64,000 nt of DNA from Sipunculus nudus. Its lineage: Eukaryota; Annelida; Sipuncula; Golfingiida; Sipunculidae. Under the pieces are notes generated by a model that worked only from the letters and a program-made list of their open reading frames with translations, was not told where the DNA came from and searched no databases. Both the position numbers and the translations under genes were made by a program. Shown here in pieces: positions 25,699-54,693 of the stretch (position 1 is the stretch's first letter; the number at the start of each line of letters is the position of its first letter). Location: contig CM049308.1 in NCBI GenBank assembly GCA_026874595.1, positions 96,520,624-96,584,623 on the forward strand, in the 5' to 3' direction.

Positions 25699-25700
25699 AA

Positions 25701-28700: not shown

Positions 28701-29225
28701 CCTCACTATGAAAGCACTCTGCTCTCACCCAGTCAGTGGGCCATTATAGTGCAGGGTACCTGTCAATTATTACCAAATCATTCCACCCTTTCTTATCTGC
28801 AACATGAGTCAGTTTTATTCTTATTTCATGACATGATATCATGCAGCATCCATATCAAACTTGAGCTTGTTTGGAATATAATTTTTTTCCAGGGAAGCAA
28901 TAAACATCTATGCTATTACTCACTTTTTGCAACAAAACTATATGTCTGTGTGGTGGAACAATGGTAATGCTGTAGAATCAATCATCTTTGTTAAACCTGA
29001 TCAAGTGGGGTTAGCTTTTGGTAGGGTGACCTCGTGTACAAAAGTGTGTCCGATCGAGAACAATGGGGAGCAAGAGCTATTTCCAGTGGTATATTTTTTA
29101 ACGCGCCTTTACTCTCCACTATTTATTACATATTATGCAAATTAAAGTTATCTGATAATAGCTAGTTATTTTTTATAAAGACTTCTTCTATATATCTTAT
29201 GTACAGCTGCTTGTCCCTCTGTCCG
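25701..29225 (+). repeat. 4-kb tandem duplication, right copy, second part
   Basis: Matches 15572-19116 starting at AAACTAGGTTTAACAG and ending CTCTGTCCGC, where the 26-bp minisatellite begins. It includes a copy of the Helentron-like tail with a 3' hairpin at 28124-28152. Confidence 0.88.
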
Positions 29226-32200
29226 CAACTAATCCCCACATCACAGACATACACAACTAATCCCCATCACAGCAACACACACAATCCCCATCACAGACAT
29301 ACACAACTAATCCCCACATCACACACATACACACACAATCCCCATCACAGACATACACACATAATCCCCATCACAGACATACACACACAATCCCCATCAC
29401 AGACATACACACATAATCCCCATCACAGACATACATAACTAATCCCCACATCACAGACATACACATATAATCCCCATCACAGACATACACAACTAATCCC
29501 CATCACAGACATACACACACAATCCCCATCACAGACATACACACATAATCCCCATCACAGACATACACACACTATCCCCATCACAGACATACACACACTA
29601 TCCCCATCACAGACATACACACACAATCCCCACATCTCACACATACACACACAATCCCCACATCTCACAGACATACACACATAATCCCCATCACAGACAT
29701 ACACACATAATCCCCATCACAGACATACACACACAATCCCCATCACAGACATACACACATAATCCCCATCACAGACATACATAACTAATCCCCACATCAC
29801 AGACATACACACATAATCCCCATCACAGACATACACAACTAATCCCCATCACAGACATACACACACAATCCCCATCACAGACATACACAACTAATCCCCA
29901 TCACAGACATACACACACAATCCCCATCACAGACATACACACATAATCCCCATCACAGACATACACACACTATACCCATCACAGACATACACACACAATC
30001 CCCATCACAGACATACACACATAATCCCTATCACAGACATACACACAATCCCCATCATAGACATACACACACAATCCCCATCACAGACATACACACAATC
30101 CCCATCACAGACATACACACACTATCCCCATCACAGACATACACACATAATCCCCATCACAGACATACATAACTAATCCTCACATCTCAGACATACACAC
30201 ACAATCCCCATCACAGACATTCACACATAATCCCTATCACAGACATACACACAATCCCCATCACAGACATACACACACAATCCCCATCACAGACATACAC
30301 ACACAATCCCCATCACAGACATACACACACAATCCCCATCACAGACATACACACATAATCCCCATCACAGACATACACACACAATCCCCATCACAGACAT
30401 ACACACATAATCCCCAATACAGACATACATAACTTATCCCCACATCACAGACATACACACATAATCCCCTTCACAGACATACACAACTAATCCCCATCAC
30501 AGACATACACACACAATCCCCATCACAGACATACACACACTATCCCCATCACAGACATACACACACAATCCCCATCACAGACATACACAACTAATCCCCA
30601 CATCTCACACATACACACACAATCCCCATCACAGACATACACACATAATCCCCATCACAGACATACACACACAATCCCCATCACAGACATACACACATAA
30701 TCCCCATCACAGACATACATAACTAATCCCCACATCACAGACATACACACATAATCCCCATCACAGACATACACAACTAATCCCCATCACAGACATACAC
30801 ACACAATCCCCATCACAGACATACACAACTAATCCCCATCACAGACATACACACAAAATCCCCATCACAGACATACACACATAATCCCCATCACAGACAT
30901 ACATAACTAATCCCCACATCACAGACATACACACATAATCCCCACATCACAGACATACACAACTAATCCCCATCACAGACATACACACACAATCCCCATT
31001 ACAGACATACACACAATCCCCATCACAGACATACACACACAAGCCCCATCACAGACATAAAAACATAATTCCCATCACAGACATACACACAATCCCCATC
31101 ACAGACATACACACACAATCCCCATTACAGACATACACACAATCCCCATCACAGACATACACACACTATCCCCATCACAGACATACATACATAATCCCCA
31201 TCACAGACATACATAACTAATCCTCACATCTCAGACATACACACACAATCCCCATCACAGACATTCACACATAATCCCTATCACAGACATACACACAATC
31301 CCCATCATAGACATACACACACAATCCCCATCACAGACATACACACATAATCCCCATCACAGACATACACACACAATCCCCATTACAGACATACACACAA
31401 TCCCCATCACAGACATACACACATAATCCCCATCACAGACATACATAACTAATCCTCACATCTCAGACATACACACACAATCCCCATCACAGACATTCAC
31501 ACATAATCCCTATCACAGACATACACACAATCCCCATCACAGACATACACACACAATCCCCATCACAGACATACACACACAATCCCCATCACAGACATAC
31601 ACAAACAATCCCCATTACAGACATACACACAATCCCCATCACAGACATACACACACTATCCCCATCACAGACATACACACATAATCCCCATCACAGACAT
31701 ACATAACTAATCCTCACATCTCAGACATACACACACAATCCCCATCACAGACATTCACACATAATCCCTATCACAGACATACACACAATCCCCATCACAG
31801 ACATACACACACAATCCCCATCACAGACATACACACACAATCCCCATCACAGACATACACACACAATCCCCATCACAGACATACACACATAATCCCCATC
31901 ACAGACATACATAACTAATCCCCACATCACAGACATACACACACAATCCCCATCACAGACATACACACACAATCCCCATCACAGACATACACACAATCCC
32001 CATCACAGACATACACACACAATCCCCATCACAGACATACACACATAATCCCCATCACAGACATACACACACAATCCCCATCATAGACATACACACACAA
32101 TCCCCATCACAGACATACACACACAATCCCCATTACAGACATACACACAATCCCCATCACAGACATACACACACTATCCCCATCACAGACATACACACAC

Positions 32201-34350
32201 AATCCCCATCCCAGACATACACACACAATCCCCATGACAGACATAAACAACTAATCTCCATCACAAACATACACACACAATCCCCATCACAGACATACAC
32301 ACACAATCCCCATCTCAGCAACACACAGAATCCCCATCACAGACATACATAACTATTCCCCACATCACAGACATACACACACAATCCCCATCACAGACAT
32401 ACACACATTATCTCCATCACAGATATACACAACTAATCCACACATCACAGACATACACACACAATCCCCATCACAGACATACACAACTAATCCCCACATC
32501 ACAGACATACACAACTAATCCCCATCTCAGCAACACACACAATCCCCATCACAGACATTCACAACTAATCCCCATCTCAGACATACACACACAATCCCCA
32601 TCACAGACATACACACACAATCCCCATCACAGACATACACAACTAATCCCCACATCACAGACATACACAACTAATCCCCATCTGAGAAACACACACAATC
32701 CCCATTATAGACATACACAACTAATCCCCACATCACAGACATACACAACTAATCCCCATCTCAGCAACACACACAATCCCCATCACAGACATACACAACT
32801 AATCCCCATCTCAGACATACACAACTAATCCCCATCTCAGCAACACACACAATCCCCATCACAGACATTCACAACTAATCCCCATCTCAGACATACACAC
32901 ACAATCCCCATCACAGACATACACACACAATCCCCATCACAGACATACACAACTAATCCCCACATCACAGACATACACAACTAATCCCCATCTGAGAAAC
33001 ACACACAATCCCCATTATAGACATACACAACTAATCCCCACATCACAGACATACACAACTAATCCCCATCACAGACATACACACACAATCCCCATCACAG
33101 ACATACACAACTAATCCCCACATCACAGACATACACAACTAATCCCCATCTCAGCAACACACACAATCCCCATCACAGACATACACAACTAATCCCCATC
33201 TCAGACATACACACACAATCCCCATCACAGACATACACACACAATCCCCATCACAGACATTCACAACTAATCCCCACATCACAGACATACACAACTAATC
33301 CCCATCTGAGAAACACACACAATCCCCATTATAGACATACACAACTAATCCCCACATCACAGACATACACAACTAATCCCCATCTCAGCAACACACACAA
33401 TCCCCATCACAGACATTCACAATTAATCCCCATCACAGACATACACAACTAATCCCCATCACAGACATACACACACAATCCCCATCACAGACATACACAC
33501 ACAATCCCCATCACAGACATTCACAACTAATCCCCACATCACAGACATACACAACTAATCCCCATCTCAGCAACACACACAATCCCCATTATAGACATAC
33601 ACACACAATCCCCATCACAGACATACACACACAATCCCCATTACAGACATACACACAATCCCCATCACAGACATACACACACTATCCCCATCACAGACAT
33701 ACACACAAAATCCCCACATCTTACACATACACACATAATCATCACATCACAGACATACACACATATAACCCCACATCACAGACATATACACATATATACC
33801 CACATCACAGACATACACACATAATCATCACATCACAGACATTTATACCAAATTCCCACATCACAGACATACACACAAATTCCACATCAAGGACATATAC
33901 AAATATAACCCCACATCACAGACATACACACATATAACCCCACATCACAGACACACACACAAATTCCACATCACAGATATATACAAATATATCCCCACAT
34001 CACAGACATACACACCTTATCCCCACATCACAGACATACACACAAATTCCACATCACAGACATACACACAAAATCCCCACATCTCAGACATACACACATA
34101 ATCATCACATCACAGACATACACACATATAACCCCACATCACAGACACAAACACAAATTCCACATCACAGACATATACACATATATCCCCACATCACAGA
34201 CATACACACCTTATCCCCACATCACAGACATACACACATAATCATCACATCACAGACATTTATACCAAATTCCCACATCACAGACATACACACAAATCCC
34301 ACATCAAGGACATATACACATATAACCCCACATCACAGACATACACACAT
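29226..34350 (+). repeat. 25/26-bp minisatellite, about 200 copies, beside the 34363 exon
   Basis: The unit is CCCCATCACAGACATACACA followed by CACAAT, with 24- to 26-bp length variants (ACACACAAT, ACACATAAT, ACAACTAAT, ACACACTAT). From about 33720 the units change to a CCCACATCACAGACATACAC form with AATCATCACAT variants. The array starts at the end of the 4-kb duplicated block (29225) and stops about 12 bp short of the donor of the 34363-34458 exon, so it lies wholly in the 21.5-kb intron. It is purine/pyrimidine mixed and CA-rich. No coding role; the open frame at its left end is only an effect of stop-free units. Confidence 0.95.
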
Positions 34351-34362: not shown

Positions 34363-34458
34363 CAGCTGTGGGGATGAGGGGGGGCTTGTCTATGAGTTCC
34401 CATATCCGGGAGCTGGCCCCGAGACCTCTGTTTAACTCTGTGTAGAAAGAGCTGAGTC
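34363..34458 (-). CDS. ABCB10: ABCB10-like transporter, exon encoding end of helix 6 and the linker to the nucleotide-binding domain
   Basis: A 96-bp exon, phase 1 to phase 1, giving [27 protein letters not shown] and a proline-rich linker. The GLSSFY.EL..GLGA..R.WEL pattern is characteristic of the segment joining helix 6 to the ATPase domain in ABCB10 and related TAP-like half-transporters. The acceptor is TTCCTGCAG ending at 34459 and the donor is GTAAGA starting at 34362. The 26-bp minisatellite begins only about 12 bp into the downstream intron. The upstream intron is 11.7 kb and carries the 59-bp exon-derived array; the downstream intron is 21.5 kb and is almost entirely repeats. Confidence 0.88.
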
Positions 34459-34530: not shown

Positions 34531-36170
34531 AAGTGACCCATGGGTCATGATGCTGTGCCAACTAATATGTCCTTGCACAGACAACTGATTAAGATAGGTG
34601 GCATCATATAGGTCACTGTGACCCAATTTCAGGTGTCTGGGGAGAATTTTTGAGGAACTCTCAGGATATCAAATCAGAAGATTCTGGGCCCCATGGTTAT
34701 GATTTGTGCCCTACTTTGGTATCAAATTTTCAATTATTCTGAGGGGTGCTTATAAGCCCCATAGCTCAGAAAATATGGGTAACAGAGACCTTAATTCAAG
34801 TTTCCAAGAAGACTTTTCACAGATCTCCCTGGATGTCAAGTCTAGGACCAATGATTACAATTTGAGCCCTGTTAAGGGACGATCGCATCTTTGAAGGTCT
34901 CATAAATAGGGAAAAAAGATGTGTTAAAATTTTTAAAATATTTAGGTGACACCACCAGTCTGCAGGAACTGATGAAACACTCCATGATGCATATGCATGC
35001 AAAGATTAATGCTGATCAATGCACTAGTTGTTCAGATACCAGAGCTTTTGTATCAAATTTTTAGTTATTCTTAGGGGTACTTCTGAGCCCCATAGCTCAC
35101 ACAATATGGGTGACAGAGACCTAATTTCAGGTTTCCAAGGAGACTTTTCATGGGCCTCCCAACATGTCAAGAAAGAAGATCCTAGGTCAAGTCTTTACGA
35201 TTTGTGCCCTGTTGTTAACAGAGGATGGCATCTTTTAAGGTCTCAAAAATAGATAAAAAAATTGATTAAAAAATCGAAAAAATACAGGTGGCACCACCAG
35301 TCTGCAGAAACAGATGAAACACTCCATGATCAATATCCATGCAAAGAATCATGGTGATCAATGCATTAGTTGTTCAAATATTTGAGCTTTTTTATCAAAT
35401 TTTCTATTATTCTGGGGGGAGGGGGGATAGAAGCCCCATAGCTCACAGGTTTTGGGTAAAAGAGACCTAATTCCAGGTTTCCAAGGAGACTTTTCATGGG
35501 CCTCCCTGCATGTCAAGACAGAAGATTCTTAGTCCAGGCATTAAGATTTGTGCCCTGTTAACAGACTGGTATCTTTTGAGGTCTTAAAAATAGAAAAAAA
35601 ATTGTAAAAAAATAGAAAAATAAAGATGGTGCCACCAGTCTGCAGACACCAATGTAACACCCCATGATCAATATCCATGCAAAAGATAATGTTGATAAAT
35701 GCATATATTGTTCGGATACTTGAGCTTTTGTATCAAATTTTTCATTATTCTGGGGGGGGGGGGGGGGTACTTCAGAGCCCCATAGCTTGAAGAATATTGG
35801 TAACAGTGACCTAATCTAGGTTTTCAATGAGACTTTTCATGGACCTATCTGGATGTAATGTTAGAAGATTCCAGGTCCAGCGTTTATGATTTTTGTGCCT
35901 TGTTAACAGATGACGGCATCTTTTAAGGTATAAGAATAGAGAAAAAATATTGTAAAAAAATTGAAAAAATACAGGTGGTGCCACCAGTCTGCAGAAACTG
36001 ATATAACACTCCATGATTAATATCCATGCAAAGAATCATGGTAATCAATGCTTTAGTTTTTCAGAAATTTGAGCTTTTGTATCAAATTTTTCATTATTCT
36101 GGGGGGTACTTTAAAGCTCCATAGCTTGAAGAATATGGGTAATAGAGACCTAATTCCACGTTTGCACATA
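34531..36170 (+). mobile_element. Truncated Helentron/pearl-like element with 336-bp monomers
   Basis: The 5' end CAAGTGACCCATGGGTCATG is at 34530-34549. Diverged 336-bp monomers follow, with GGTGGCACCACC-type motifs near 34945, 35290, 35627 and 35973 and a poly-G tract at about 35751-35767. It stops at about 36170 without microsatellite or hairpin, where LINE-derived sequence begins. It starts about 70 bp upstream (gene strand) of the 34363-34458 exon acceptor. Confidence 0.65.
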
Positions 36171-36806: not shown

Positions 36807-39800
36807 TTCTTACAAACAGACACTCCATCTTATGTGAAGGAATGTGGATCACATGACTTACCTCCAATAGACACTCCCACATATGCTGCTTAGAGGAGGA
36901 ATGTGGATCACATGACTTACCTCAAACAGACACTCCCACATACACTGCGAAGAGGAGGAATGTGGATCACATGACTTACCTCCAATAGATACTCCCACAT
37001 ACGCTGTTTAGAGGAGGAATGTGGATCACATGACTTACCTCCAACAGACACTCCCACATACGCTGCGTTCAGGAGGAATGTGGATTACATGACTTACCTC
37101 CAAGAGACACTCCCACATACGCTGGGTAGAGGAGGAATGTGGATTACATGACTTACCTCCAAGAGACACTCAAACATACACAGCATAGAGGAAGAATGTG
37201 GATCACATGACTTACCTCCAACAGACACTCCCACAAACGCTGGGTAGAGGAGGAATGTGGATTACATGACTTACCTCCAAGAGACAATCCCACATACGCT
37301 GTATAGAGGAGGAATGAGGATTACATGACTTACCTCCAAGAGACACTCCCACATACGCTGCTTAGAGGAGGAATGTGGATCACATGACTTACCTCCAATA
37401 GACACTCCCACATACACTGTGTAGAGGAGGAATGTGGATCACATGACTTAACTCCAATAGACACTCCCACATATGCTGCGTAGAGGAGGAATGAGGATTA
37501 CATGACTTACCTCCAAGAGACACTCCCACATACGCTGCTTAGAGGAGGAATGTGGATCACATGACTTACCTCCAATAGACACTCCCACATACACTGTGTA
37601 GAGGAGGAATGTGGATCACATGACTTAACTCCAATAGACACTCCCACATATGCTGCGTAGAGGAGGAATGTGGATCACATGACTTAACTCCAATAGACAC
37701 TCCCACATACACTGCGAAGAGGAGGAATGTGGATCACATGACTTACCTCCAATAGATACTCCCACATACGCTGTTTACAGGAGGAATGTGGATCACATGA
37801 CTTACCTCCAACAGACACTCCCACATACACTGCATAGAGGAGGAATGTGGATCACATGACTTACCTCCAACAGACACCTAATCTAGGTTTTCAATGAGAC
37901 TTTTCATGGACCTATCTGGATGTAATGTTAGAAGATTCCAGGTCCAGCGTTTATGATTTTTGTGCCTTGTTAACAGATGACGGCATCTTTTAAGGTATAA
38001 GAATAGAGAAAAAATATTGTAAAAAAATTGAAAAAATACAGGTGGTGCCACCAGTCTGCAGACACTGATATAACACTCCATGATTAATATCCATGCAAAG
38101 AAGGATTACATGACTTACCTCCAATAGACACTCCCACATACGCTGCTTAGAGGAGGAACGTGGATCACATGACTTACCTCCAATAGACACTCCCACATAC
38201 ACTGTGTAGAGGAGGAATGAGGATCACATGACTTACCTCCAACAGACACTCCCACATACACTGTGTGGAGGAGGAATGTGGATCACATGACTTACCTCCA
38301 ATTGACACTCCCACATACACTGTGTGGAGGAGGAATGTGGATCACTTGACTTACCTCCAATTGACACTCCCACATACACTGTGTGGAGGAGGAATGTGGA
38401 TCACATGACTTACCTCCAACAGACACTCCCACATACACTGTGTGGAGGAGGAATGAGGATCACATGACTTACCTCCAACAGACACTCCCACATACACTGT
38501 GTGGAGGAGGAATGTGGATCACATGACTTACCTCGAATTGACACTCCCACATACACTGTGTAGAGGAGGAATGAGGATCACATGACTTACCTCCAACAGA
38601 CACTCCCACATACACTGTGTGGAGGAGGAATGTGGATCACATGACTTACCTCCAATTGACAATCCCACATACACTGTGTAGAGGAAGAATGTGGATCACA
38701 TGACTTACCTCCAATTGACACTCCCACATACACTGTGTAGAGGAGGAATGTGGATCACATGACTTACCTCCAATAGACACTCCCACATACACTGTGTAGA
38801 GGAGGAATGAGGATCACATGACTTACCTACAACAGACACTCCCACATACACTGTGTGGAGGAGGAATGTGGATCACATGACTTACCTTCAATTGACACTC
38901 CCACATTCACTGTGTAGAGGAGGAATGTGGATCACATGACTTACCTCCAATTGACACTCCCACATACACTGTGTAGAGGAGGAATGTGGATCACATGACT
39001 TATCTCCAATAGACACTCCCACATACGCTGTGTAGAGGAGGAATGTGGATCACATGACTTACCTCCAATAGACACTCCCACATACACTGTGTAGAGGAGG
39101 AATGTGGATCACATGACTTACCTCCAATAGACACTCCCACATACACTGTGTAGAGGAGGAATGAGGATCACATGACTTACCTACAACAGACACTCCCACA
39201 TACACTGTGTGGAGGAGGAATGTGGATCACATGACTTACCTTCAATTGACACTCCCACATTCACTGTGTAGAGGAGGAATGTGGATCACATGACTTACCT
39301 CCAATTGACACTCCCACATACACTGTGTAGAGGAGGAATGTGGATCACATGACTTATCTCCAATAGACACTCCCACATACGCTGTGTAGAGGAGGAATGT
39401 GGATCACATGACTTACCTCCAATAGACACTCCCACATACACTGTGTAGAGGAGGAATGTGGATCACATGACTTATCTCCAATAGACACTCCCACATACGC
39501 TGTGTAGAGGAGGAATGTTGATCACAAGACTTACCTCCAATAGACACTCCCACATACACTGTGTGGAGGAGGAATGTGGATCACATGACTTACCTCCAAT
39601 TGACACTCCCACATACACTGTGTAGAGGAGGAATGAGGATCACATGACTTACCTCCAATAGACACTCCCACATACACTGTGTAGAGGAGAAATGTGGATT
39701 ACATGACTTACCTCCAAGAGACACTCCCACATACGCTGTGTAAAGGAGGAATGTGGATCACATGACTTACCTCCAATTGACACTCCCAAATACACTTTGT

Positions 39801-42800
39801 AGAGGAGGAATGTGGATCACATGACTTACCTCCAATTGACACTCCCACATACACTGTGTAGAGGAGGAATGTGGATCACATGACTTACCTCCAATTGACA
39901 CTCCCACATACACTGTGTAGAGGAGGAATGTGGATCACATGACTTACCTCCAATAGACAGTCCCACATACACTGTGTAGAGGAGGAATGTGGATCACATG
40001 ACTTACCTCCAATTGACACTCCCACATACACTGTGTAGAGGAGGAATGTGGATCACATGACTTACCTCCAATAGACAGTCCCACATACGCTGCGTAGAGG
40101 AGGAATGTGGATCACATGACTTACCTCCAATTGACACTCCCACATACACTGTGTAGAGGAGGAATGTGGATCACATGACTTACCTCCAATTGACACTCCC
40201 AAATACACTTTGTAGAGGAGGAATGTGGATCACATGACTTACCTCCAATTGACACTCCCACATACACTGTGTAGAGGAGGAATGTGGATCACATGACTTA
40301 CCTCCAATTGACACTCCCACATACACTGTGTAGAGGAGGAATGTGGATCACATGACTTACCTCCAATAGACAGTCCCACATACACTGTGTAGAGGAGAAA
40401 TGTGGATTACATGACTTACCTCCAAGATACACTCCCACATACACTGTGTAGAGGAGGAATGTGGATTACATGACTTACCTCCAATTGACACTCCCACATA
40501 CACTGTGTAGAGGAAGAATGTGGATTACATGACTTACCTCCAATTGACACTCCCACATACACTGTGTAGAGGAGAAATGAGGATAACATGACTTACCTCC
40601 AATAGACACTCCCAGATACCCTGTGTAGAGGAAGAATGTGGATCACATGACTTACCTCCAATTGACACTCCCACATACACTGTGTAGAGGAGGAATGTGG
40701 ATCACATGACTTACCTCCAATAGACACTCCCACATACGCTGTGTAGAGGAAGAATGTGGATCACATGACTTACCTCCAATTGACACTCCCACATACACTG
40801 TGTAGAGGAGGAATGAGGATCACATGACTTACCTCCAACAGACACTCCCACATACACTGTGTAGAGGAAGAATGTGGATCACATGACTTACCTCCAAGAG
40901 ACACTCCCACATACACTGTGTAGAGGAAGAATGTGGATCACATGACTTACCTCTAACAGACACTCGAACATACACTGTGTAGAGGAGGAATGTGGATCAC
41001 ATGACTTATCTCCAACAGACACTCCCACATACACTGTGTAGAGGAGGAATGTGGATTACATGACTTACCTCCAATTGACACTTCCACATACGCTGCATAG
41101 AGGAGGAATGTGGATCACATGACTTACCTCCAATTGACACTTCCACATACACTGTGTAGAGGAGAAATGTGGATTACATGACTTACCTCCAAGAGACACT
41201 CCCACATACACTGTGTAGAGCAGGAATGTGGATCACATGACTTACCTCCAATTGACACTTCCACATACGCTGCATAGAGGAGGAATGTGGATTACATGAC
41301 TTACCTCCAATTGACACTCCCACATGTGCTGTGTAGAGGAGGAATGTGGATCACATGACTTACCTCCAAGAGACACTCCCACATATGCTGCGTAGAGGAG
41401 GAATGAGGATTACATGACTTACCTCCAATAGACACTCCCACATAACCTGTGTAGAGGAAGAATGTGGATCACATAACTTACCTCCAATTGACACTCCCAC
41501 ATACACTGCGTAGAGGAGGAATGTGGATCACATGACTTACCTCCAATAGACACTCCCACATACGCTGTGTAGAGGAGGAATGAGGATCACATGACTTACC
41601 TCCAATTGACACTCCCACATACACTGTGTAGAGGAAGAATGTGGATCACATGTCTTACCTCCAATAGACACTCCCACATGCGCTGTGTAGAGGAGGAATG
41701 AGGATCACATGACTATCCTCCAATAGACACTCCCACATACACTGTGTAGAGGAAGAATGTGGATCACATGACTTACCTCCAATAGACACTCCCACATACA
41801 CTGTGTAGAGGAGGAATGAGGATCACATGACTTACCTCCAATAGACACTCCCACATGCGCTGTGTAGAGGAGGAATGTGGATCACATGACTTACCTCCAA
41901 GAGACACTCCCACATACCCTGTGTAGAGGAGGAATGTGGATCACATGACTTACCTCCAACAGACACTCCCACATACACTGTGTGGAGGAGGAATGTGGAT
42001 CACATGACTTACCTCGAATTGACACTCCCACATACACTGTGTAGAGGAGGAATGAGGATCACATGACTTACCTCCAACAGACACTCCCACATACACTGTG
42101 TGGAGGAGGAATGTGGATCACATGACTTACTTCCAACAGACACTCCCACATACCCTGTGTAGAGGAGGAATGTGGATCACATGACTTATCTCCAACAGAC
42201 ACTCCCACATACACTGTGTAGAGGAAGAATATGGATCACATGACTTACCTCCAACAGACACTCCCACATACACTGTGTAGAGGAGGAATGTGGATCACAT
42301 GACTTATCTCCAACAGACACTCCCACATACACTGTGTAGAGGAAGAATGTGGATCACATGACTTACCTCCAATAGACACTCCCACATACACTGTGTAGAG
42401 GAAGAATGTGGATCACATGACTTACCTCCAACAGACACTCCCACATACACTGTGTAGAGGAGGAATGTGGATCACATGACTTATCTCCAACAGACACTCC
42501 CACATACACTGTGTAGAGGAAGAATGTGGATCACATGACTTACCTCCAACAGACACTCCCACATACACTGTGTAGAGGAAGAATGTGGATCACATGACTT
42601 ACCTCCAACAGACACTCCCACATACACTGTGTAGAGGAAGAATGTGGATCACATGACTTACCTCCAACAGACACTCCCACATACACTGTGTAGAGGAGGA
42701 ATGTGGATCACATGACTTACCTCCAATTGACACTCCCACATACACTGTGTAGAGGAGGAATGTGGATCACATGACTTATCTCCAACAGACACTCCCACAT

Positions 42801-45800
42801 ACACTGTGTAGAGGAAGAATGTGGATCACATGACTTACCTCCAACAGACACTCCCACATACACTGTGTAGAGGAGGAATGTGGATCCCATGACTTACCTC
42901 CAATTGACACTCCCACATACACTGTGTAGAGGAGGAATGTGGATCACATGACTTACATCCAATTGACACTCCCACATACGCTACGTAGTGGAGGAATGTG
43001 GATCACATGACTTACCTCCAATAGACACTCCCACATACAAAGTGTAGAGGAAGAATGTGGATCACATGACTTGCCTCCAACAGACACTCCCACATACACT
43101 GTGTAGAGGAAGAATGTGGATCACATGACTTACCTCCAACAGACACTCCCACATACACTGTGTGGAGGAGGAATGTGGATCACATGACTTACTTCCAACA
43201 GACACTCCCACATACCCTGTGTAGAGGAGGAATGTGGATCACATGACTTATCTCCAACAGACACTCCCACATACACTGTGTAGAGGAAGAATATGGATCA
43301 CATGACTTACCTCCAACAGACACTCCCACATACACTGTGTAGAGGAGGAATGTGGATCACATGACTTATCTCCAACAGACACTCCCACATACACTGTGTA
43401 GAGGAAGAATGTGGATCACATGACTTACCTCCAACAGACACTCCCACATACACTGTGTAGAGGAAGAATGTGGATCACATGACTTACCTCCAACAGACAC
43501 TCCCACATACACTGTGTAGAGGAGGAATGTGGATCACATGACTTATCTCCAACAGACACTCCCACATACACTGTGTAGAGGAAGAATGTGGATCACATGA
43601 CTTACCTCCAACAGACACTCCCACATACACTGTGTAGAGGAGGAATGTGGATCACATGACTTACCTCCAACAGACACTCCCACATACACTGTGTAGAGGA
43701 GGAATGTGGATCACATGACTTATCTCCAACAGACACTCCCACATACACTGTGTAGAGGAAGAATGTGGATCACATGACTTACCTCCAACAGACACTCCCA
43801 CATACACTGTGTAGAGGAGGAATGTGGATCCCATGACTTACCTCCAATTGACACTCCCACATACACTGTGTAGAGGAGGAATGTGGATCACATGACTTAC
43901 ATCCAATTGACACTCCCACATACGCTACGTAGTGGAGGAATGTGGATCACATGACTTGCCTCCAACAGACACTCCCACATACACTGTGTAGAGGAAGAAT
44001 GTGGATCACATGACTTACCTCCAATAGACACTCCCACATACACTGTGTGGAGGAGGAATGTGGATCACATGACTTACATCCAATTGACACTCACACATAC
44101 GCTACGTAGAGGAGGAATGTGGATCACATGACTTACCTCCAATAGACACTCCCACATACGCTGTGTAGAGGAGGAATGTGGATCACATGACTTACCTCCA
44201 ACAGACACTCCCACATACACTGTGTAGAGGAAGAATGTGGATCACATGACTTACCTCCAATTGACACTCCCACATACACTGCGTAGAGGAGGAATGTGGA
44301 TCACATGACTTACTCCAACAGACACTCCCACATACACTGTGTAGAGGAAGAATGTGGATTACATGACTTACCTCCAATAGGCACTCCCACATACGCTGCG
44401 TAGAGGAGGAATTTGGATTACATGACTTACCTCCAATAGACACTCCCACATACGCTGTGTAGAGGAGGAATGTGGATCACATGACTTACCTACAATAGAC
44501 ACTCCCACAAACCCTGTGTGGAGGAGGAATGTGGATCACATGACTTACCTCCAACAGACACTCCCACATACGCTGTGTAGAGGAGGAATGTGGATCACAT
44601 GACTTACCTCCAAGAGACACTCCCACATACCCTGTGTAGTGGAAGAATGTGAATCACATGACTTACCTCCAATAGACACTCCCACATACCCTGTGTAGAG
44701 GAAGAATGTGGATTATATGACTTACCTCCAATAGACACTCCCACATACGCTGCGTAGAGGAGGAATTTGGATTACATGACTTACCTCCAACAGACACTCC
44801 AACATACACTGTGTAGAGGAAGAATGTGGATTACATGACTTACCTCCAATAGACACTCCCACATACGCTGCATAGAGGAGGAATTTGGATTACATGACTT
44901 ACCTCCAATAGACACTCCCACATACGCTGTGTAGAGGAGGAATGTGGATCACATGACTTACCTCCAACAGACACTCCCACATACGCTGTGTAGAGGAAGA
45001 ATGTGGATCACATGACTTACCTCCAACAGACACTCCCACATACACTGTGTAGAGGAGGAATGTGGATCACATGACTTACCTCCAATAGACACTCCCACAT
45101 ACGCTGCGTAGAGGAGGAATTTGGATTACATGACTTACCTCCAATAGACACTCCCACATACGCTGTGTAGAGGAGGAATGTGGATCACATGACTTACCTA
45201 CAATAGACACTCCCACATACCCTGTGTGGAGGAGGAATGTGGATCACATGACTTACCTCCAAGAGACACTCCCACATACGCTGTGTAGAGGAGGAATGTG
45301 GATCACATGACTTACCTCCAAGAGACACTCCCACATACACTGTGTAGTGGAAGAATGTGAATCACATGACTTACCTCCAATAGACACTCCCACATACCCT
45401 GTGTAGAGGAAGAATGTGGATTACATGACTTACCTCCAATAGACACTCCCACATACGCTGTGTAGAGGAGGAATTTTGGATTACATTACTTACCTCCAAC
45501 AGACACTCCCACATACACTGTGTAGAGGAAGAATGTGGATTACATGACTTACCTCCAATAGACAGTCCCACATACACTGTGTAGAGGAGGAATGTGGATC
45601 ACATGACTTACCTCCAACAGACACTCCCACATACGCTGTGTAGAGGAAGAATGTGGATCACATGACTTACCTCCAAGAGACACTCCCACATACACTGTGT
45701 AGAGGAGGAATGTGGATCACATGACTTACCTCCAACAGACACTCCCACATACACTGTGTAGAGGAGGAATGTGGATCACATGACTTACCTCCAAGAGACA

Positions 45801-46243
45801 CTCCTACATACACTGTGTAGAGGAGGAATGTGGATCACATGACTTACCTCCAATAGACACTCCCACATACACTGTGTAGAGGAGGAATGTGGATCACATG
45901 ACTTACCTCCAATAGACACTCCCACATACGCTGTGTAGAGGAGGAATGTGGATCACATGACTTACCTCCAAGAGACACTCCCACATACACTGTGTAGACG
46001 AGGAATGTGGATCACATGACTAACCTCCAAGAGACACTCCCACATACACTATGTAGAGGAGGAATTTGGATCACATGACTTACCTCCAACAGACACTCCC
46101 ACATACACTGTGTAGAGGAGGAATTTGGATCACATGACTTACCTCCAACAGACACTCCCACATACGGTGCTTAGAGGAGGAATGTGGATCACATGACTTA
46201 CCTCCAATAGATACTCCCACATACGCTGCGTAGAGGAGGAATG
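36807..46243 (-). repeat. 59-bp minisatellite derived from an exon end plus its splice donor, about 155 copies
   Basis: Read on the gene strand, each unit contains ATTCCTCCTCTACGC, then TATGTGGGAGTATCTATTGG and AG, the end of the helix 5-6 exon, followed by GTAAGTCATGTGATCCA, the first intron bases. That is 42 coding plus 17 intronic bases. The right-most unit is the real exon end (46202-46243). The array runs leftward through the intron for about 9.4 kb and degrades near 36807. Units vary mainly at two to four positions (CTATTGG, CTGTTGG, CAATTGG or CTCTTGG; TACGC or TACAC). Most keep GTAAGT. A minority carry changes such as ATAAGT, TTAAGT or GCAAGT. A foreign 227-bp patch interrupts it at 37876-38102. 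Copy number is estimated from length divided by 59. Confidence 0.95.
37876..38102 (+). repeat. 227-bp patch inside the 59-bp array, copied from 35809-36035
   Basis: The 59-bp repeat breaks off at CAGACACCTAATCTAGG and resumes after ATCCATGCAAAGAA. The sequence between is a same-orientation copy of 35809-36035, part of a 336-bp core monomer with its GGTGGTGCCACC motif. I see one clear mismatch by eye (CAGACACTG against CAGAAACTG). The source lies about 2 kb to the left, just outside the array. Near-identity and lack of element ends suggest template switching or break repair rather than transposition. Confidence 0.85.
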
Positions 46244-46337
46244 CAGAGAGGTCTCCCACCGTGATCTGAGACTCTGTCATCATCAGACCACCATAGTAAA
46301 ACACAGACAGAACTATCAGGTTTCCTGCCATACCAGT
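46202..46337 (-). CDS. ABCB10: ABCB10-like transporter, exon encoding transmembrane helices 5 and 6
   Basis: The 136-bp exon starts in phase 0 after TTTTAG and leaves one base of the next codon (phase 1). It encodes TGMAGNLIVLSVFYYGG, then a short loop (MTESQITVGDLS), then FLLYAAYVGVSIG. These are helices 5 and 6 of the half-transporter, and the GNLIVLSV.Y.GG and VGVSIGGLSSFY patterns match ABCB10 closely. The donor is GTAAGT at 46201-46196. The last 42 bp of this exon (46202-46243) together with the first 17 intron bases are the unit of the 59-bp array that follows directly in the intron, so the true exon end is also the first repeat copy. Use of a later donor copy would add 59 bp, shift the frame, and meet a TAA created at the exon/intron junction in one of the frames. 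Confidence 0.9.
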
Positions 46338-47270
46338 CTAAAATAAGAAAGTACCAGTCTAAAATGAGAAAGTTCCAGTCTAAAACTAGATTGGCTTTGT
46401 TTTTGCAGTGAGAAAACGGATAAATGCACCCCCTTTGGGCCATCCCAAAACATTAGGATTATAAATATGCACTATCTCAAAACAATGATTCTAGATTTTG
46501 GATATGACCTTGAAGGTCACGTTCAAGGTCACCACTTTTGGAAATTAGATGAGATTTTGGCAGAAAGAACTGTTGTGTCAAATTTGAGGATAAAATGTAA
46601 AAAACTTCAAAAGTTAAGGGGTTCACAAAAATTTCAAATTTTGACAGATTTGACCTTGAAGATTTAAAGATGAAGGTCAAGGTCACCATGTGTCAAACTT
46701 GTCCAAGATTTTTGGATAAACAATTAGTATTTAAAATTTCAAAGGAAAATATTCAGGCCTTTAAAAGTTATCGTATTCACAAGATATCCTACAGACGACA
46801 ACAACTGACCATGATAGATGACTAATCACCAACAGGTGTCGCCAGCAGGGACATAAATTCATTGAACTTTTTGCAGTAACTGCCAGGTGCTCCCATCTGT
46901 TGAGCGTGGTTAAAACTATTTGCACTTAGTCACCAAAGACTTTAAAACCATCCCAGACTTGAAGGCAGAAGTGGAGGATATAAATTCCTTGAACTTGCTT
47001 GTTGTTTCTACAAATGACTTGTTTTTATGACTGTTTTAATGTAACTAGATATGAACTGTTTTTATTCCTGTACTGATTTATACCACCTAAAAAATGTTTT
47101 ATGACTATGATAATGTTTACCATAATTCATCTGTTTTCAAATTGGAAGTGTCTAGGCAGCTGACAATGTGACTGTGGAGCATCAGAGGATTCTATACACA
47201 CTTTTAATTTGTGTTTGATTTTTACAGATTTTAGATTCATAATAACTCATGCACAATACATAGGTCTATA
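46338..47270. other. ABCB10 intron sequence with clustered AAGGTCA sites
   Basis: Mostly unique AT-rich intron downstream (gene strand) of exon 56556. No exon is expected or seen here. It contains two related phrases, GACATAAATTCATTGAACTT (46850) and ATATAAATTCCTTGAACTTG (46978), and the nuclear-receptor-like half-sites described separately. Confidence 0.6.
46505..46685. promoter_or_regulatory. Cluster of four TCAAGGTCA extended half-sites
   Basis: TGACCTTGA at 46505-46513, TCAAGGTCA at 46523-46531, TGACCTTGA at 46651-46659 and TCAAGGTCA at 46677-46685, two in each orientation. TCAAGGTCA is the consensus for monomer-binding receptors of the ERR/SF-1 type. This is motif matching only. Similar phrases are common in invertebrate repeats, so this may be repeat-derived. 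Confidence 0.3.
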
Positions 47271-48741: not shown

Positions 48742-48746
48742 ATATA

Positions 48747-49482
48747 TTATGTTACGGTCCCTTTTCACACCAAACAACTCAGGCCGAACCGTAACACATA
48801 TGCTCAGACACGTTCTCTTCAAATGAATACGTAACCAAAATATGGGTGCAAAAACAGTACTATATTACTAGATTACAATATTTACATTCATACACAAATA
48901 ATATAATAGTCAATACATAACGTAATTTATAACCAAGTCTCTGACGAAAACTGAGTCTCTAAATAACGAACTGTAACGAAATACTTAACTGAATCCGGTA
49001 TACGAGAAACTGAAGTCCATCATCAACACATAATTCGGGCACACACAAAACTGAAGTCCTGTATTAATCCATGTGGCACCAAACAAACATAAAGTCTCTC
49101 CTCTTCCTAAATAATAAAGTTCATGGCGTAGTTCATGGCATTCCGTGGGCTTGGGGACCAAGAGCCCACGGTCACGGTCCCCGGGGATAACAGCAACGTG
49201 GCGTAGCAAAGTCAATAGTCCCGCCTCGTACTGCAGGCGAGTTCGTTTTATAGGTTTTCAACAATGGGTGGAAACCGCAGAAGTTTGTGGTTTTGCCTGA
49301 GAGAAACGATAGCGCCGGCAGAACTGCAAAACCAGTACTGAATGGTCCAAGAATAGTTTTTATGTTTCTCAAAGCGCGTCAGTAGTCAATGATAGCGGGG
49401 TGGATCCATAAGAGTGGAAACGGGGGCGGCCACACCACTTCGTGGCGCCATCCTCCGATGTCCGGGTGACGTCCATGCAACA
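48747..49482 (-). repeat. 3' LTR of the Gmr1-like retrotransposon
   Basis: 736 bp, near-identical to 54694-55429. Its outer end abuts ATATA (48742-48746), the right edge of a Tigger-like inverted-repeat element, so the retrotransposon probably landed at that element's TA-rich end. Confidence 0.93.
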
Positions 49483-49494
49483 CCCCCACCCTTA
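49483..49494 (-). other. Polypurine tract of the LTR retrotransposon
   Basis: The element strand reads TTAAGGGTGGGGG immediately before the 3' LTR, the expected place and composition for plus-strand priming. Confidence 0.7.
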
Positions 49495-49717
49495 AAAGAA
49501 AGAAGGTAAGGAGAGCAAAGCATTAGCACTGTATGACGAGTATATGAGTAGTTTGACATCTTAAGCATTAGTTTATGCTTCTTACAGCTAATTAATTATC
49601 ATCATCACAAATAGTATAATCAGCAATATCTTAATACATGTAATATATGTAATACAACTCTTCCAAAAGGACAGAACATATCCGAGGCTATGACAAGAGT
49701 CAATCATCAGATCAAAA
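49495..49717 (-). other. 3' untranslated segment of the LTR retrotransposon
   Basis: AT-rich non-coding sequence between the end of RNase H and the polypurine tract. No envelope-like open frame is present. Confidence 0.6.
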
Positions 49718-50470
49718 TTAATGACGTCTTGATAACGTATCAGCGATTATATTATCGGAGCCCTTGATGTGTTTGATAACTAGGTTAAACTCTGACAGGG
49801 CTAGACTCCATCTCATTAATCTCTGATTATTATTCTTCATCTTATGAAGAAATGTTATGGGATTATGATCTGTATAAACAGTTATATCATAAGGCGTAGA
49901 GCCCAAATATACTTCAAAGTGCTGTAACGCCATCAATAGTGACAGAGTTTCCTTTTCAATAGTAGAATAATTCTTTTGATGAGGTAAAAATTTCTTTGAA
50001 TAGTAGCAAACCGGATGACTTATGCTAAAGTCATCGTCTTGGATGAGCACAGCGCCTACACCACAATCGCTGGCATCCGTCATGAGAGAAAACGGTTTAT
50101 CAAAATTTGGAGGCTGTAACACAGGTGCACTTTGTAATATAGCTTTGGCTCTTTCAAAAGCATTTTGACAGTTTTTATTCCAATGGAATTTTCTGTCCTT
50201 TTTCAATAGGTCCGTTAACGGATTCACAACTTCTGCAAAGTTTTGACAAAATTTCCTGTAATACCCAGTCATTCCTAAGAATCGCATTAGTTCCTTGCGA
50301 TTAGTAGGAACTGGAAATTCTACGATAGCAGATACTTTACTGGCAATTGGTTTTACACAACCTTGACCTACTTCGTGCCCTAAATATGTTACAGTTGCAC
50401 GACAAAAATCACTCTTGGCAAGATTAACTGTCAATCCTGCTTTTTTCAGTCTCTCAAAGAATTCTACCAA
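49718..50470 (-). CDS. Retrotransposon Pol, reverse transcriptase thumb and RNase H (after in-frame stop)
   Basis: 250 codons in the same frame as the upstream Gag-Pol part; the bases from 50497 to 50471 are open, so only the TAA at 50498-50500 separates them. It begins VEFFERLKKAGLTVNLAKSD and YLGHEV, the end of the gypsy-type reverse transcriptase, then FLGMTGYYRKF and the RNase H domain with TDASD, the ETLSLLMAL glutamate region, VYTDH and DTLSRRH at the end. As it stands this part has its own methionine but no visible way of being translated separately. A short Asn-His codon repeat (AATCAC units) follows the stop. Confidence 0.88.
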   Translation of the reverse strand: MVEFFERLKKAGLTVNLAKSDFCRATVTYLGHEVGQGCVKPIASKVSAIVEFPVPTNRKELMRFLGMTGYYRKFCQNFAEVVNPLTDLLKKDRKFHWNKNCQNAFERAKAILQSAPVLQPPNFDKPFSLMTDASDCGVGAVLIQDDDFSISHPVCYYSKKFLPHQKNYSTIEKETLSLLMALQHFEVYLGSTPYDITVYTDHNPITFLHKMKNNNQRLMRWSLALSEFNLVIKHIKGSDNIIADTLSRRH

Positions 50471-50497
50471 ACTTTGTTTATGATTGTGATTGTGATT

Positions 50498-53400
50498 TTA
50501 TACAACAACATCATCAATATAGCAAGTACAGTTATCTAAGCCAGATAATACACAATTCATAAGTCTCATGAAGCAGGCTGGCGCATTTTTCATTCCGAAG
50601 GGCATAACTTTGTACTGGAACAAACCGTTTGGCGTTACAAACGCAGATATTTGCTTAGCCCGTTCGGTAAGAGGTACCTGCCAATAACCTTTTAACAGAT
50701 CTAACTTGCTAATATACGTAGCAGATCCAATCCTATCAATGCAATCTTCCACTCTGGGCAAAGGGTAAGTATCTGTTATTGTTACAGTGTTAACTTTTCG
50801 ATAGTCTGTACAAAATCTGTAGGTCATATCAGGCTTCTTTATCAACAAACATGGGGAACTCCAGGCACTACTGCTATTTTCAATAATATCATTCTCTATC
50901 ATATACTTTATTTCATTCTTTATGGCTTGTAACTTTTGGGGGCCAGCTCTATATGGTGCCTGTTTAATAGGGGAAGCATCTCCTACGTCTACATCATGCT
51001 GTAGTACATTAGTTCTACTGGGGACATCAGGAAATAAAGAGTCATAATTTAGCAGGATTTCCTTCAACTCTGATAACTGATCGAAATCCAAATGTGACAA
51101 TTTCTGATCTAAATTATTTAAAATATCAGAGTTGTTCAGTTTTACAGGATGTTCAGTTTTCTTCATGAGAACATCCTCTGCATTCTTTTCAGTTTCTTTA
51201 ATGAGTACCAAATTTGTTTGGGGAGGACTAGATTGACATGTTTCCGCTGATCTGTCATGATATTCTTTCAACATATTTATATGACAAAGTTGTTGCGACT
51301 TTCTACGATCAGGAGTATCAATTACATAATTCAAATCTGATTTCTTCTCAACAACTTTGTATGGTCCAGAGTATTTTGCTTGCAGGGGATGTCCTGGAAT
51401 TGGGAATAGTACCAGAACTTTATCACCAAGTTTAAATTCTCTTTTTGTCGTCTTTTTGTCATACCATACTTTCATTTTGTTTTGGGCTTTCTTTAAATGT
51501 TCTTGGGCGATGTCATTTGCCCTACTTAATTTCTCCTTTAATTCCTGAACATATTTTAACAAGCTACTTTGAGAACTGTTTTCCATCCAAGTGTCTTTTA
51601 ACACCGCCAGGGGGCCTCTTACACAGTGCCCATACACTAATTCAAAAGGGCTAAACCCTAAGCTTTCTTGCACTGCTTCTCGGGCTGCAAATATCAGAAA
51701 GGGTAAACCCTCATCCCACTGGTTCCCAGTGTCAAGACAATAAGCTCTAATCATGTTTTTGAGAGTTTGATGAAATCGCTCTAGAGCACCTTGACTCTCA
51801 GGATGGTAGGCACTGGATTTGTAGTGTTTTATGCCTAGCTCTGCCATAACCTGGGCAAATATATTTGACATGAAATTTGAACCTTGATCCGTTTGTATTG
51901 TTCTTGGTAAGCCAAAAGTAGTAAAAAATTTAACCAGAGCTTCAACAATTTTCTTTGCAGATATAGTTCTAAGAGGAATAGCTTCTGGAAATCTAGTTGC
52001 AGTACACATGATTGTTAGAACATATTCATTGCCATGTTTAGTTTTTCTTAGCGGTCCTACACAGTCAAGTATTACTGATTCAAACGCATCATGTGTTGTT
52101 GGTATGGGCGAGAGTGGCGCAGGACTAATTTGGTGGGTTGGTTTTCCAATCATTTGACACACATGACAAGTTTTACAGTATTTCGCCACGTCTCGTTTTA
52201 ACTTGGGCCAATAGAAGTGTTGGAGAATTTTGTGTTTGGTTTTCCTGACACCCAAATGTCCTGCCATAGGATGATCATGTGCAAGTTTTAAGATTTCTGG
52301 GCGATACTCGGGGGGAACTACAATTTGATAAAGAGTTTTCCACGTTTCGTCCGCTGGTACGGTGGGAGGTCTATATTTTCTGACTAGTACATCATTCTGT
52401 AAGGTGAAACAAGTTGGAACTTTATCTGCTTCCTCTTTAGTCAAGGCATTTTCTCTAAGGGAGGCAATATCAGGATCTTTCTTTTGCATTTCTATCAAAT
52501 CATCAGTTTTCATGCTAACTTCTACATTCTTTACACTCCTATCCTTCTTTAACTGTTCATGCCCATTTTGATCAGGCGATTTCACGCCGTTTGTACTCCT
52601 TTGGAGATTTCTATTCAGGGTCTGTTTGCCCTGTACTACATTTGTAGTCGAGTCCTTTGGACTGGGTGTGCCACTTGGGTCACATACGGGCGATTTAATA
52701 TTTACTCGCGTAACGGGCTTTAAGCCACTGACGTCATCGTTTGAATGCGCCATAAAGGTTTGCGAGAGGTCAAGTACAGAACTCTCTGGTTTCAGACTTG
52801 CCTTTTTACTCATCGCTCGAGTCACTACACAGCCTGGAAATACGCCCGGAAACTCCTGCTGGAGCAGGTCTGTGTCCCTATCAGTGCTCGGCAATTTTGT
52901 CATTCTGGGATCAATTTTCACTCTGTCACCAGCTAAATCGTTGCCTAGGAGGAGCGAAACGCCCTCTACTGGCAACTTAGAACAAACTCCTACAGTTACA
53001 AATTCAGAGACTAAATCAGATTCTAGTTTCACTCTGTGTAATGGAACTTCTAAAAATTCCGAATTAACGCCCTGGACTAGAACTGAACACTCCGCGTAAC
53101 TCTCTTGAGAGAAGGGAAGAACAGATTTCAAAACGAGGCTTTGGGTTGCCCCGGTATCCCTTAAGATTTTAACACGGGCCTTTCTTGCATGGTTACCCTC
53201 TAACTGAACAAAGCCATCTGACACAAAGGGCTGAAAGCTCTCGTGGACAGGGCTTTGTGTTTCACCTTTAGTCTCTAGTTTACTGGGCATTGTTACCGGT
53301 TTCATGCTCTGCGTAACAGTCAATGCATTAGGTTTAGGCTTACTTTGACCGTATCTTTTTCTATAACACTCAGATTCTGTATGCCCCTTGAACTCACAGA

Positions 53401-54076
53401 ATGTACAATATTTGGGTCCAGTCCTAGGTTGTCCCTCTTTATGTTGAGCAGGAGAGTCAGATTGACTTTTATACTGGGGTTTACCATGATCGGACTGTGG
53501 TTTACCTGAGCCGGAGTGACCCCGATAGTAGGGACTACCCTTTCTCCGACCCAGTTTTGGGCTTTTGCTACCTTCTCTTTTCTCACCATACCTCCTCCTG
53601 TGACTGGTATAACTGGGGCGGTGCGTCAAGGCAAATTCATCTGCCAGGACACCAGCCTCGTTTACATTTCTTACTTTATGTTCATCCAAAAATATTTTAA
53701 TGTCACTACGGATATGCCTTTTGAACTCTTCTATCAAAATTAGTTGTTTGAGTTTTTCAAAATCCTGATCAATTTTCATAGACTGACACCATCTATTAAA
53801 TGCACTTTCTTTGTCTCTAGCATATTCAACATGAGTTTGATTTTCTCTTTTTGTGGCATTCCTAAATTTTAAGCGATACGCTTCGGGGACTAATTCATAA
53901 GCTCTCAGAATGACCTCTTTTACAGTGTCGTAATCCCTGCATTGTTCGTCTGTGAGCGCAGTGTAAACGTCCTGTGCGCGACCAACCAGAACGCTTTGTA
54001 ACAACAGGGTCCACTGGCCTTTAGGCCAAGCCATTAAAGTGGCCACTCGTTCAAAATAACTGAAATAACGCTCCAC
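50498..54076 (-). CDS. Retrotransposon Gag-Pol: capsid, zinc knuckle, protease, integrase, reverse transcriptase (ends at in-frame stop)
   Basis: 1,192 codons from the first methionine; the frame is open further upstream to the Gag stop at 54170. By residue: about 1-150 retrotransposon Gag (YFERVATLMAWP, then FNRWCQSM); 224-237 a CX2CX4HX4C zinc knuckle (C224, C227, H232, C237); 307-310 DTGA protease active site; about 600-640 HHCC zinc-binding integrase domain (H602, H607, C637, C640); 671, 730 and 766 the D, D, E catalytic residues with exactly 35 residues between the last two; 901-909 a GPY-type integrase tail (YSGPYKVV); about 1060-1192 reverse transcriptase fingers and palm, with LDLLKGYWQ and YIDD at 1186-1189. 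It stops at TAA 50498-50500, three residues after YIDD. Integrase lies before reverse transcriptase. Plus-strand open frames across this interval are shadows. Confidence 0.92.
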   Translation of the reverse strand: MERYFSYFERVATLMAWPKGQWTLLLQSVLVGRAQDVYTALTDEQCRDYDTVKEVILRAYELVPEAYRLKFRNATKRENQTHVEYARDKESAFNRWCQSMKIDQDFEKLKQLILIEEFKRHIRSDIKIFLDEHKVRNVNEAGVLADEFALTHRPSYTSHRRRYGEKREGSKSPKLGRRKGSPYYRGHSGSGKPQSDHGKPQYKSQSDSPAQHKEGQPRTGPKYCTFCEFKGHTESECYRKRYGQSKPKPNALTVTQSMKPVTMPSKLETKGETQSPVHESFQPFVSDGFVQLEGNHARKARVKILRDTGATQSLVLKSVLPFSQESYAECSVLVQGVNSEFLEVPLHRVKLESDLVSEFVTVGVCSKLPVEGVSLLLGNDLAGDRVKIDPRMTKLPSTDRDTDLLQQEFPGVFPGCVVTRAMSKKASLKPESSVLDLSQTFMAHSNDDVSGLKPVTRVNIKSPVCDPSGTPSPKDSTTNVVQGKQTLNRNLQRSTNGVKSPDQNGHEQLKKDRSVKNVEVSMKTDDLIEMQKKDPDIASLRENALTKEEADKVPTCFTLQNDVLVRKYRPPTVPADETWKTLYQIVVPPEYRPEILKLAHDHPMAGHLGVRKTKHKILQHFYWPKLKRDVAKYCKTCHVCQMIGKPTHQISPAPLSPIPTTHDAFESVILDCVGPLRKTKHGNEYVLTIMCTATRFPEAIPLRTISAKKIVEALVKFFTTFGLPRTIQTDQGSNFMSNIFAQVMAELGIKHYKSSAYHPESQGALERFHQTLKNMIRAYCLDTGNQWDEGLPFLIFAAREAVQESLGFSPFELVYGHCVRGPLAVLKDTWMENSSQSSLLKYVQELKEKLSRANDIAQEHLKKAQNKMKVWYDKKTTKREFKLGDKVLVLFPIPGHPLQAKYSGPYKVVEKKSDLNYVIDTPDRRKSQQLCHINMLKEYHDRSAETCQSSPPQTNLVLIKETEKNAEDVLMKKTEHPVKLNNSDILNNLDQKLSHLDFDQLSELKEILLNYDSLFPDVPSRTNVLQHDVDVGDASPIKQAPYRAGPQKLQAIKNEIKYMIENDIIENSSSAWSSPCLLIKKPDMTYRFCTDYRKVNTVTITDTYPLPRVEDCIDRIGSATYISKLDLLKGYWQVPLTERAKQISAFVTPNGLFQYKVMPFGMKNAPACFMRLMNCVLSGLDNCTCYIDDVVV

Positions 54077-54169
54077 TTCCTTTTCATTGAAGGGAGGTAC
54101 TTTTGTCGAATTTCTGAATAGGAATTCAGACGGCTCATGTGCTGTACGATTTTGAGGATTTTGTAACTC

Positions 54170-54538
54170 TTACTCTTTCAACTTAATTTGCGTTTCTCTT
54201 TCGATTTCACATCTACGGATTTCTGTTTCAACTTGAGCTTCATATTTCAATTTAAGTTCATACTTTCTCAACTCTAGTTCTATCGGGTCAATAGCTGTTG
54301 CCCCAAGAGGTTCCTTAATAGGTTTTTCCTCCAAATCAGATTCCTCTTTACTATCTATATCACCATATAATGATTTCTTAAGTACATTTCTTAAACCCTC
54401 TACAGTGTATACCTCCATGATGTCAATATTTAAATGTAGAGCAACAATTTCAAGTTCATTTTTCTTTAACGTATACAATAAGCTCCTATTTTCTCTTAAT
54501 TGTGGTATAATTTCATTGGGTTTAAATTCCGTACCCAT
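54170..54538 (-). CDS. Retrotransposon Gag, N-terminal part (ends at in-frame stop)
   Basis: 122 codons beginning MGTEFKPNEI, with a helical N-terminus and a highly charged C-terminal region (ELELRKYELKLKYEAQ...EIRRCEIERE) likely to be coiled coil, as in many Ty3/gypsy Gag starts in animals. The frame stops at TAA (54170-54172) but is the same frame as the large open frame that starts at 54076, and the 93 bases between are open. It therefore looks like the front of one Gag-Pol protein cut by a single stop. Whether the stop is a mutation or is read through cannot be told from one copy. Confidence 0.75.
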   Translation of the reverse strand: MGTEFKPNEIIPQLRENRSLLYTLKKNELEIVALHLNIDIMEVYTVEGLRNVLKKSLYGDIDSKEESDLEEKPIKEPLGATAIDPIELELRKYELKLKYEAQVETEIRRCEIERETQIKLKE

Positions 54539-54674
54539 ATTTGCAAAGTATCAAGATAACGTGTCTGAGAAATATACGAGTTCAATTGTAGTTAAATACT
54601 AGTTCAATAACTAGAAGTTATAGAGACCACTGTGAAATTTTACATCCAAATGTAGCCGTTATTACGAAATACAG

Positions 54675-54693
54675 GGTCTCGTCGCGGTCGCCA
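54675..54693 (-). other. Primer binding site of the LTR retrotransposon
   Basis: Directly inside the 5' LTR the element strand reads TGGCGACCGCGACGAGA. It begins with TGG, the complement of a tRNA CCA end. The implied tRNA 3' end ...CGCGGTCGCCA resembles a tRNA-Arg acceptor end as I remember it; the isoacceptor is unproven. Confidence 0.7.

Follow-up and report, generated by a model that had tools for sequence, protein, structure and literature searches.

How a splice donor is chosen among identical ones has been studied in engineered genes in which a few sites were duplicated. Turri et al. (1995) reportedly found that a minisatellite in the human interferon-induced 6-16 gene (IFI6/G1P3) provides multiple splice donor sites; its 12-bp unit is said to occur in about 26 copies, with the first few donors used. 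In amphioxus (lancelets), "mirage" minisatellites lie in the Adh3, globin, and troponin C genes, and related repeats occur in PGBD5 (PMC3087553, PMC3902484). According to the available portions of these papers, Adh3 units are 10 to 72 bp long, and the piggyBac paper names additional lancelet genes with such repeats (PMC3902484). The globin mirages carry AG/GT signals in many but not all repeats, reportedly leave regular splicing undisturbed, evolve in concert inside the cluster with boundary copies excluded, are unstable in length, and were proposed as an intron-gain model (PMC3087553). BflGb6 has 6 and 3 units of 150 to 160 bp in two haplotypes, and BflGb9 has a 157-bp duplicate (PMC3087553). 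A related process, as the accessible part of one article has it, is intron gain by tandem duplication (ATP2A1; fission-yeast 24-bp repeats), in which a duplicated AGGT-containing segment supplies both GT and AG (PMC4974935). Here we analyzed 64,000 nucleotides of Sipunculus nudus (contig CM049308.1, positions 96,520,624 to 96,584,623; "the window"), in which a 59-bp segment across an exon-intron boundary of ABCB10 is repeated within the gene's own intron. We give a probability of roughly 0.74 to the reading that this array is a giant mirage-type minisatellite, mostly passive, with the first donor used.

ABCB10 is a mitochondrial ABC transporter. On the minus strand of the window we found six of its exons (A to F), all flanked by AG and GT, whose reading frame is open once they are joined. 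Over its entire extent, the joined translation aligned with human ABCB10 (3zdq; E = 3e-101), and the closest protein among the best 120 of 879 matches was 71% identical. Exon C ends at the boundary CATTCCTCCTCTACGCAGCGTATGTGGGAGTATCTATTGGAG/GTAAGTCATGTGATCCA, where the slash marks the splice junction. The features of exon C and its array are as follows.

46202 to 46337, minus strand: exon C, 136 nt, the end of which is the source of the 59-bp unit
46196 to 46201, minus strand: genuine exon C donor GTAAGT (GAG/GTAAGT)
46185 to 46243, minus strand: unit 1, the true exon end (42 nt) plus the first 17 nt of the intron (GTAAGTCATGTGATCCA)
36838 to 46184, minus strand: 154 more full 59-bp copies, of which 136 retain GT and 122 are identical to the exonic donor at -3 to +6
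37869 to 38102, minus strand: insert of about 234 bp within the array, identical at 231 of 234 positions to 35802-36035 in the same intron
36807 to 36844, minus strand: degenerate last copy, ending TTTGTAAGAA, the first 7 bases of which are the array's end piece

Tandem Repeats Finder (TRF) called the array at 36838-46243 with a period of 59 and 159.1 copies. Unit-by-unit wraparound alignment gave 160 segments, and we excluded five of them from all counts: segments 139 to 142 (the insert and an adjoining partial unit) and segment 160 (the 7-base end piece). This left 155 full copies (segments 1 to 138 and 143 to 159) across 9.4 kb, arranged head to tail in the transcribed orientation. Unit length was 59 bp in 152 copies, 60 in two, and 58 in one. 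A preliminary description of this DNA had proposed a unit of exactly 42 bp of ABCB10 exon end and 17 bp of intron, repeated about 155 times in the transcribed orientation; unit 1, the alignment, and the position of the units on the gene's sense strand agree with it on all three points. It had placed the array at 36807 to 46243. The upper limit stands, and the full copies begin at 36838, with the lower limit taking in the degenerate further copy.

The units averaged 95.5% identity to their consensus, with 93 distinct sequences among the 155. GT was retained in 137 full copies and lost in 18, most commonly by a G-to-A change at +1 (12 copies). The gene's exact donor, GAG/GTAAGT, was present in 123 of the 155, as was GAGGTAAGT. 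Thus, the earlier claim of more than 100 near-perfect decoy donors holds, with 122 of the 154 later copies identical to the real one at -3 to +6. The motif AGGTAAGT occurred in 129 full units and 130 times on the array's sense strand. No further occurrence was found in the window, whichever strand was read. Because AGGTAAGT is confined to the array, we conclude that the array did not arise by chance. It is also extremely unlikely that the true copy number is small and that assembly inflated or misjoined the array, since the 93 distinct units, the internal blocks, and the insert are not expected from a looped assembly.

The end of exon C (LSAFLLYAAYVGVSIGG) was conserved in other animals, as seen in nine aligned relatives and 20 related open reading frames (ORFs) from a database. 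The exon is therefore the source of the unit. Read by eye, 12 of these 20 ORFs departed from the conserved sequence just past the equivalent of SIGG (P0122 less clearly), and five of the 12 have a lysine there, as GTAAG would encode, which hints at intron read-through. The remaining eight ran on, again by eye, into sequence resembling the next exon. No array-like sequence was seen by eye in the 20 ORFs, a weak test given the short read-through. Since 12 of 20 diverge at the same exon end, the intron after exon C is probably old, and the array probably grew within it.

Two CpGs in the exonic unit are both gone from the consensus, and CG was kept at these positions in 16 and 39 of the 155 copies, exon included. 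The exon itself retains both, hence its Ala-Ala. This indicates that the exon was not overwritten by its 154 neighbors or that overwriting was removed by selection. The exonic A at column 31 was found among the 154 other copies only in the distal units 144 and 157. This may be the ancestral state surviving far from the source, as expected with array ends escaping homogenization. Inside the array, runs of 10, 7, 6, and 5 consecutive units recurred at offsets of 18, 6, 3, and 12 units, respectively, each unit differing by at most 1 base. The insert at 37869-38102, which the preliminary description did not include, has its matching DNA about 2 kb away and looks like a nearby-templated repair event, either templated insertion or conversion. 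From the block duplications and this templated-looking insert, we infer unequal exchange and repair.

If the decoys were maintained for a function, their donors might be expected to vary less than the rest of the unit. We found that purifying selection on the donor copies is not indicated: there were 1.22 change types per column at -3 to +6 and 1.16 elsewhere (P for as few or fewer, 0.67). This argues against decoys kept for function, in a test that is coarse because the copies evolve in concert. One such function would be a landing platform for U1 that shields the long intron from premature polyadenylation. The 130 AGGTAAGT sites in 9.4 kb and the predicted duplex of GAGGTAAGT with the 5' end of U1 (-10.4 kcal/mol) are in line with it, and AATAAA and ATTAAA are absent from the array. 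However, both signals are equally absent from the 26-27-bp and 35-bp arrays of the window, which lack AGGTAAGT, so their absence does not point to U1. Together with the lack of extra constraint on the donors, this makes the platform highly improbable.

We next consider what use of the later donors would do to the message. Among donors 1 to 8, only the first left exons C, D, and E open when joined. Counting from the start of exon C, donor 2 led to a stop at codon 73 and donor 3 to one at codon 129; with donors 4 to 8, the frame closed within the array at codon 85, where GG/TAAGT supplies a TAA. Later donors had previously been described as nonproductive, each adding a frame-shifting 59 bp, with one frame ending at a TAA. 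All seven that we tested do give premature stops and the TAA is as described, but the frame shift is not general: the fourth donor adds 177 nt and keeps the frame, yet includes the array's stop. When 2 to 5 units were taken together as a pseudo-exon (82 to 261 nt), all 596 placements examined contained a stop, irrespective of AG or GT retention. The other end of exon C is also repetitive, a feature beyond the preliminary description.

46331 to 46385, minus strand: 21-bp tandem repeat (2.6 copies) over the exon C acceptor, with three TTTTAG/ACTGG sites at 21-bp spacing

Either upstream TTTTAG/ACTGG acceptor brought in an in-frame TAG. Both expansions extend outward from exon C, and thus the shortest exon is the only productive form that we found, single-unit microexons aside.

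These stops are what a nonproductive-splicing brake would need. In such a brake, some transcripts would take later donors or pseudo-exons with stops, and copy number would lower ABCB10 output through nonsense-mediated decay. Acceptor-like sites are also dense: YAG preceded by at least 12 of 16 pyrimidines occurred 147 times in the array (15.6/kb), compared with 1.8/kb on the minus strand outside arrays. In contrast, the donors show no extra constraint, and lancelet mirages reportedly occur without splicing disturbance (PMC3087553). We consider the brake rather unlikely. The preliminary description had raised both the U1 platform and a copy-number brake, and the evidence here lends support to neither.

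We also found a pyrimidine-rich tract and CAG 24 nt upstream of the donor in nearly every unit, which the preliminary description lacked. The tract has 13 of 16 pyrimidines in the unit consensus, in the range of the genuine acceptors of exons B to E (12 to 13); exon A has 15. This cryptic AG was retained in 152 of the 155 copies. Both AG and GT were present in 132 of the 154 nonexonic copies, and 130 of these form in-frame, stop-free exons of 24 nt. Nearly every unit therefore resembles, on paper, a complete phase-preserving microexon. The array could then act as a reservoir from which single units are at times spliced in, adding eight residues (for example, VYVGVSIG) behind the usual YVGVSIG. 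However, exons of 24 nt are usually poorly recognized, and the cryptic AG belongs to the exon sequence itself (TACGCAGCG), hence its retention needs no selection. In addition, no protein shared three 5-residue words with an array ORF, in a search to which such isoforms would hardly be visible. We regard this reservoir as very unlikely. In a wider proposal, some 130 units would each serve as a full splice module, with an acceptor, a phase-neutral exon of 24 nt, and a donor, and would be used at a low rate: single units would give in-frame inserts of eight residues, multi-unit pseudo-exons and later donors would feed nonsense-mediated decay, and copy number would tune ABCB10 output between individuals. 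This, too, we think unlikely.

Taken together, these data favor a passive array. According to this model, a 59-bp segment over the ABCB10 exon-intron boundary was tandemly duplicated inside a preexisting intron, after which unequal exchange, slippage, or the repair of breaks would have enlarged the array. The spliceosome would recognize exon C as the stretch between its true acceptor and donor 1, the smallest exon available, and would discard the remaining 136 GT-bearing full copies along with the intron. Exon definition appears to be the best account of first-donor choice, because what is left to distinguish that donor is its upstream context and order: a genuine acceptor and the body of the exon lie within 136 nt of it, and it is transcribed first.

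Several points weigh against this model. The first donor has no motif advantage, as 122 of the 154 decoys share its exact sequence at -3 to +6. Over +1 to +17, 92 of 154 match the exonic copy, as do 23 of 154 over -9 to +17. The numbers fall to 2 of 154 over -20 to +17 and to none over the whole unit, and thus differences in exonic context remain between the first donor and the decoys. Predicted folding leaves the first donor no more open than most of the next 13 intact ones. When 5' splice sites are duplicated, several U1-bound donors can favor the intron-proximal one, and perfect use of the first donor is therefore not guaranteed. Finally, the evidence consists of the DNA letters of one assembly window, with copy number and length as assembled. 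As a separate candidate, we rejected RNA structure that hides the decoys: a GGAGG/CCUCC hairpin is possible, but three joined units were no more stable than shuffled ones (z = +0.5).

The array is not the only repeat beside an ABCB10 exon. The remaining features of the gene are as follows.

58217 to 58351, minus strand: exon A; a 45-bp array of 28 copies (56942-58179) starts 38 nt past its last base
56556 to 56702, minus strand: exon B; a 30-bp repeat of 2 copies starts 6 nt past its last base
56491 to 56550: the 30-bp repeat of 2 copies after exon B
34363 to 34458, minus strand: exon D, the next exon downstream of the 59-bp array; a 26-27-bp array of 195 copies (29228-34349) starts 14 nt past its last base
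12629 to 12835, minus strand: exon E
12069 to 12148, minus strand: exon F

Exons A, B, and D are thus followed by tandem arrays at distances of 38, 6, and 14 nt. Among the five ABCB10 donors other than that of exon C, three have an array end within the next 40 bp (binomial P = 2e-5 in a post hoc test that includes short repeats), against a background in which about 1.3% of window positions lie no more than 40 bp 5' of one of 21 array ends taken from the TRF rows. This suggests a tendency of ABCB10 introns to grow tandem repeats at their starts. We rejected an exonic origin for the 45-, 30-, and 26-27-bp arrays, as these start 6 to 38 nt into the introns and, on inspection by eye, contain nothing of the exons. 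Upstream of exon A, a 35-bp array (59773-64000) carries 61 copies of AGGTCAGT and 6 of AGGTGAGT on the sense strand. It looks donor-like, and its source may lie outside the window; derivation from the preceding ABCB10 exon was rejected because, by eye, the unit did not match the protein sequence of that exon.

The ABCB10 introns here are AT-rich and satellite-rich. A 336-342-bp tandem repeat family spreads across them (20933-25598, 34714-36163, and 8821-9542). Some of its consensus units contain the palindrome GGTGGCGCCACC, and the insert of the 59-bp array has its match in one piece of this family. We also noted a 3.5-kb direct duplication (15569-19110 and 25698-29226, 98.7% identity) and a tRNA-like match at 9987-10058 (38.4 bits) within a 306-bp repeat, probably a tRNA-derived short interspersed nuclear element. 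The intron between exons B and C holds a long terminal repeat (LTR) retrotransposon on the gene's strand (48746-55429), whose 737-bp LTRs are 99.9% identical. An in-frame stop interrupts its reverse transcriptase frame, and its integrase domains precede the reverse transcriptase, which is unusual for a Ty3-like element. This order is a feature of Gmr1-type elements.

The preliminary description had stated that no case of this size was known. That holds at most for size: boundary-spanning repeats are known in lancelets, as the available parts of two papers relate (PMC3087553, PMC3902484). The open-licence literature that we searched for such repeats, by titles and the openings of abstracts, showed no boundary-spanning array of this size, and searching by repeat sequence strings returned no relevant paper. 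The accessible portions of PMC6905558, PMC12783039, PMC2964331, PMC11506328, and PMC2572611 contain no case of this kind; the first reports an intronic 27-bp minisatellite in abalone. A 30-base junction pattern had no exact counterpart in viral contigs, which is a weak test.

Unlike in intron gain by tandem duplication, the ABCB10 intron appears older than its array. We rejected that route here, as the divergence of 12 of 20 ORFs at the same exon end is consistent with an old intron. The likeness to the mirages is closer. The ABCB10 unit straddles the exon-intron boundary of a coding gene (42 nt of exon and 17 nt of intron), and splice signals are kept in many but not all units (GT in 137 and the cryptic AG in 152 of 155). 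The interior of the array is block-duplicated and its boundaries are less homogenized, with the column-31 A only in units 144 and 157. The kind of element, tandem repeats across exon-intron boundaries, is thus already described, and the novelty lies in scale and possibly in taxon. One pre-mRNA would carry a real donor and 122 decoys identical to it at -3 to +6, distinguished mainly by upstream context and order, which makes the array a natural experiment on how cells pick the right splice site. With 155 full copies in 9.4 kb, compared with the 6 and 3 units given for BflGb6 in the accessible part of that report, the ABCB10 array shows how large boundary-spanning repeats can become inside a conserved gene and bears on models of intron gain.

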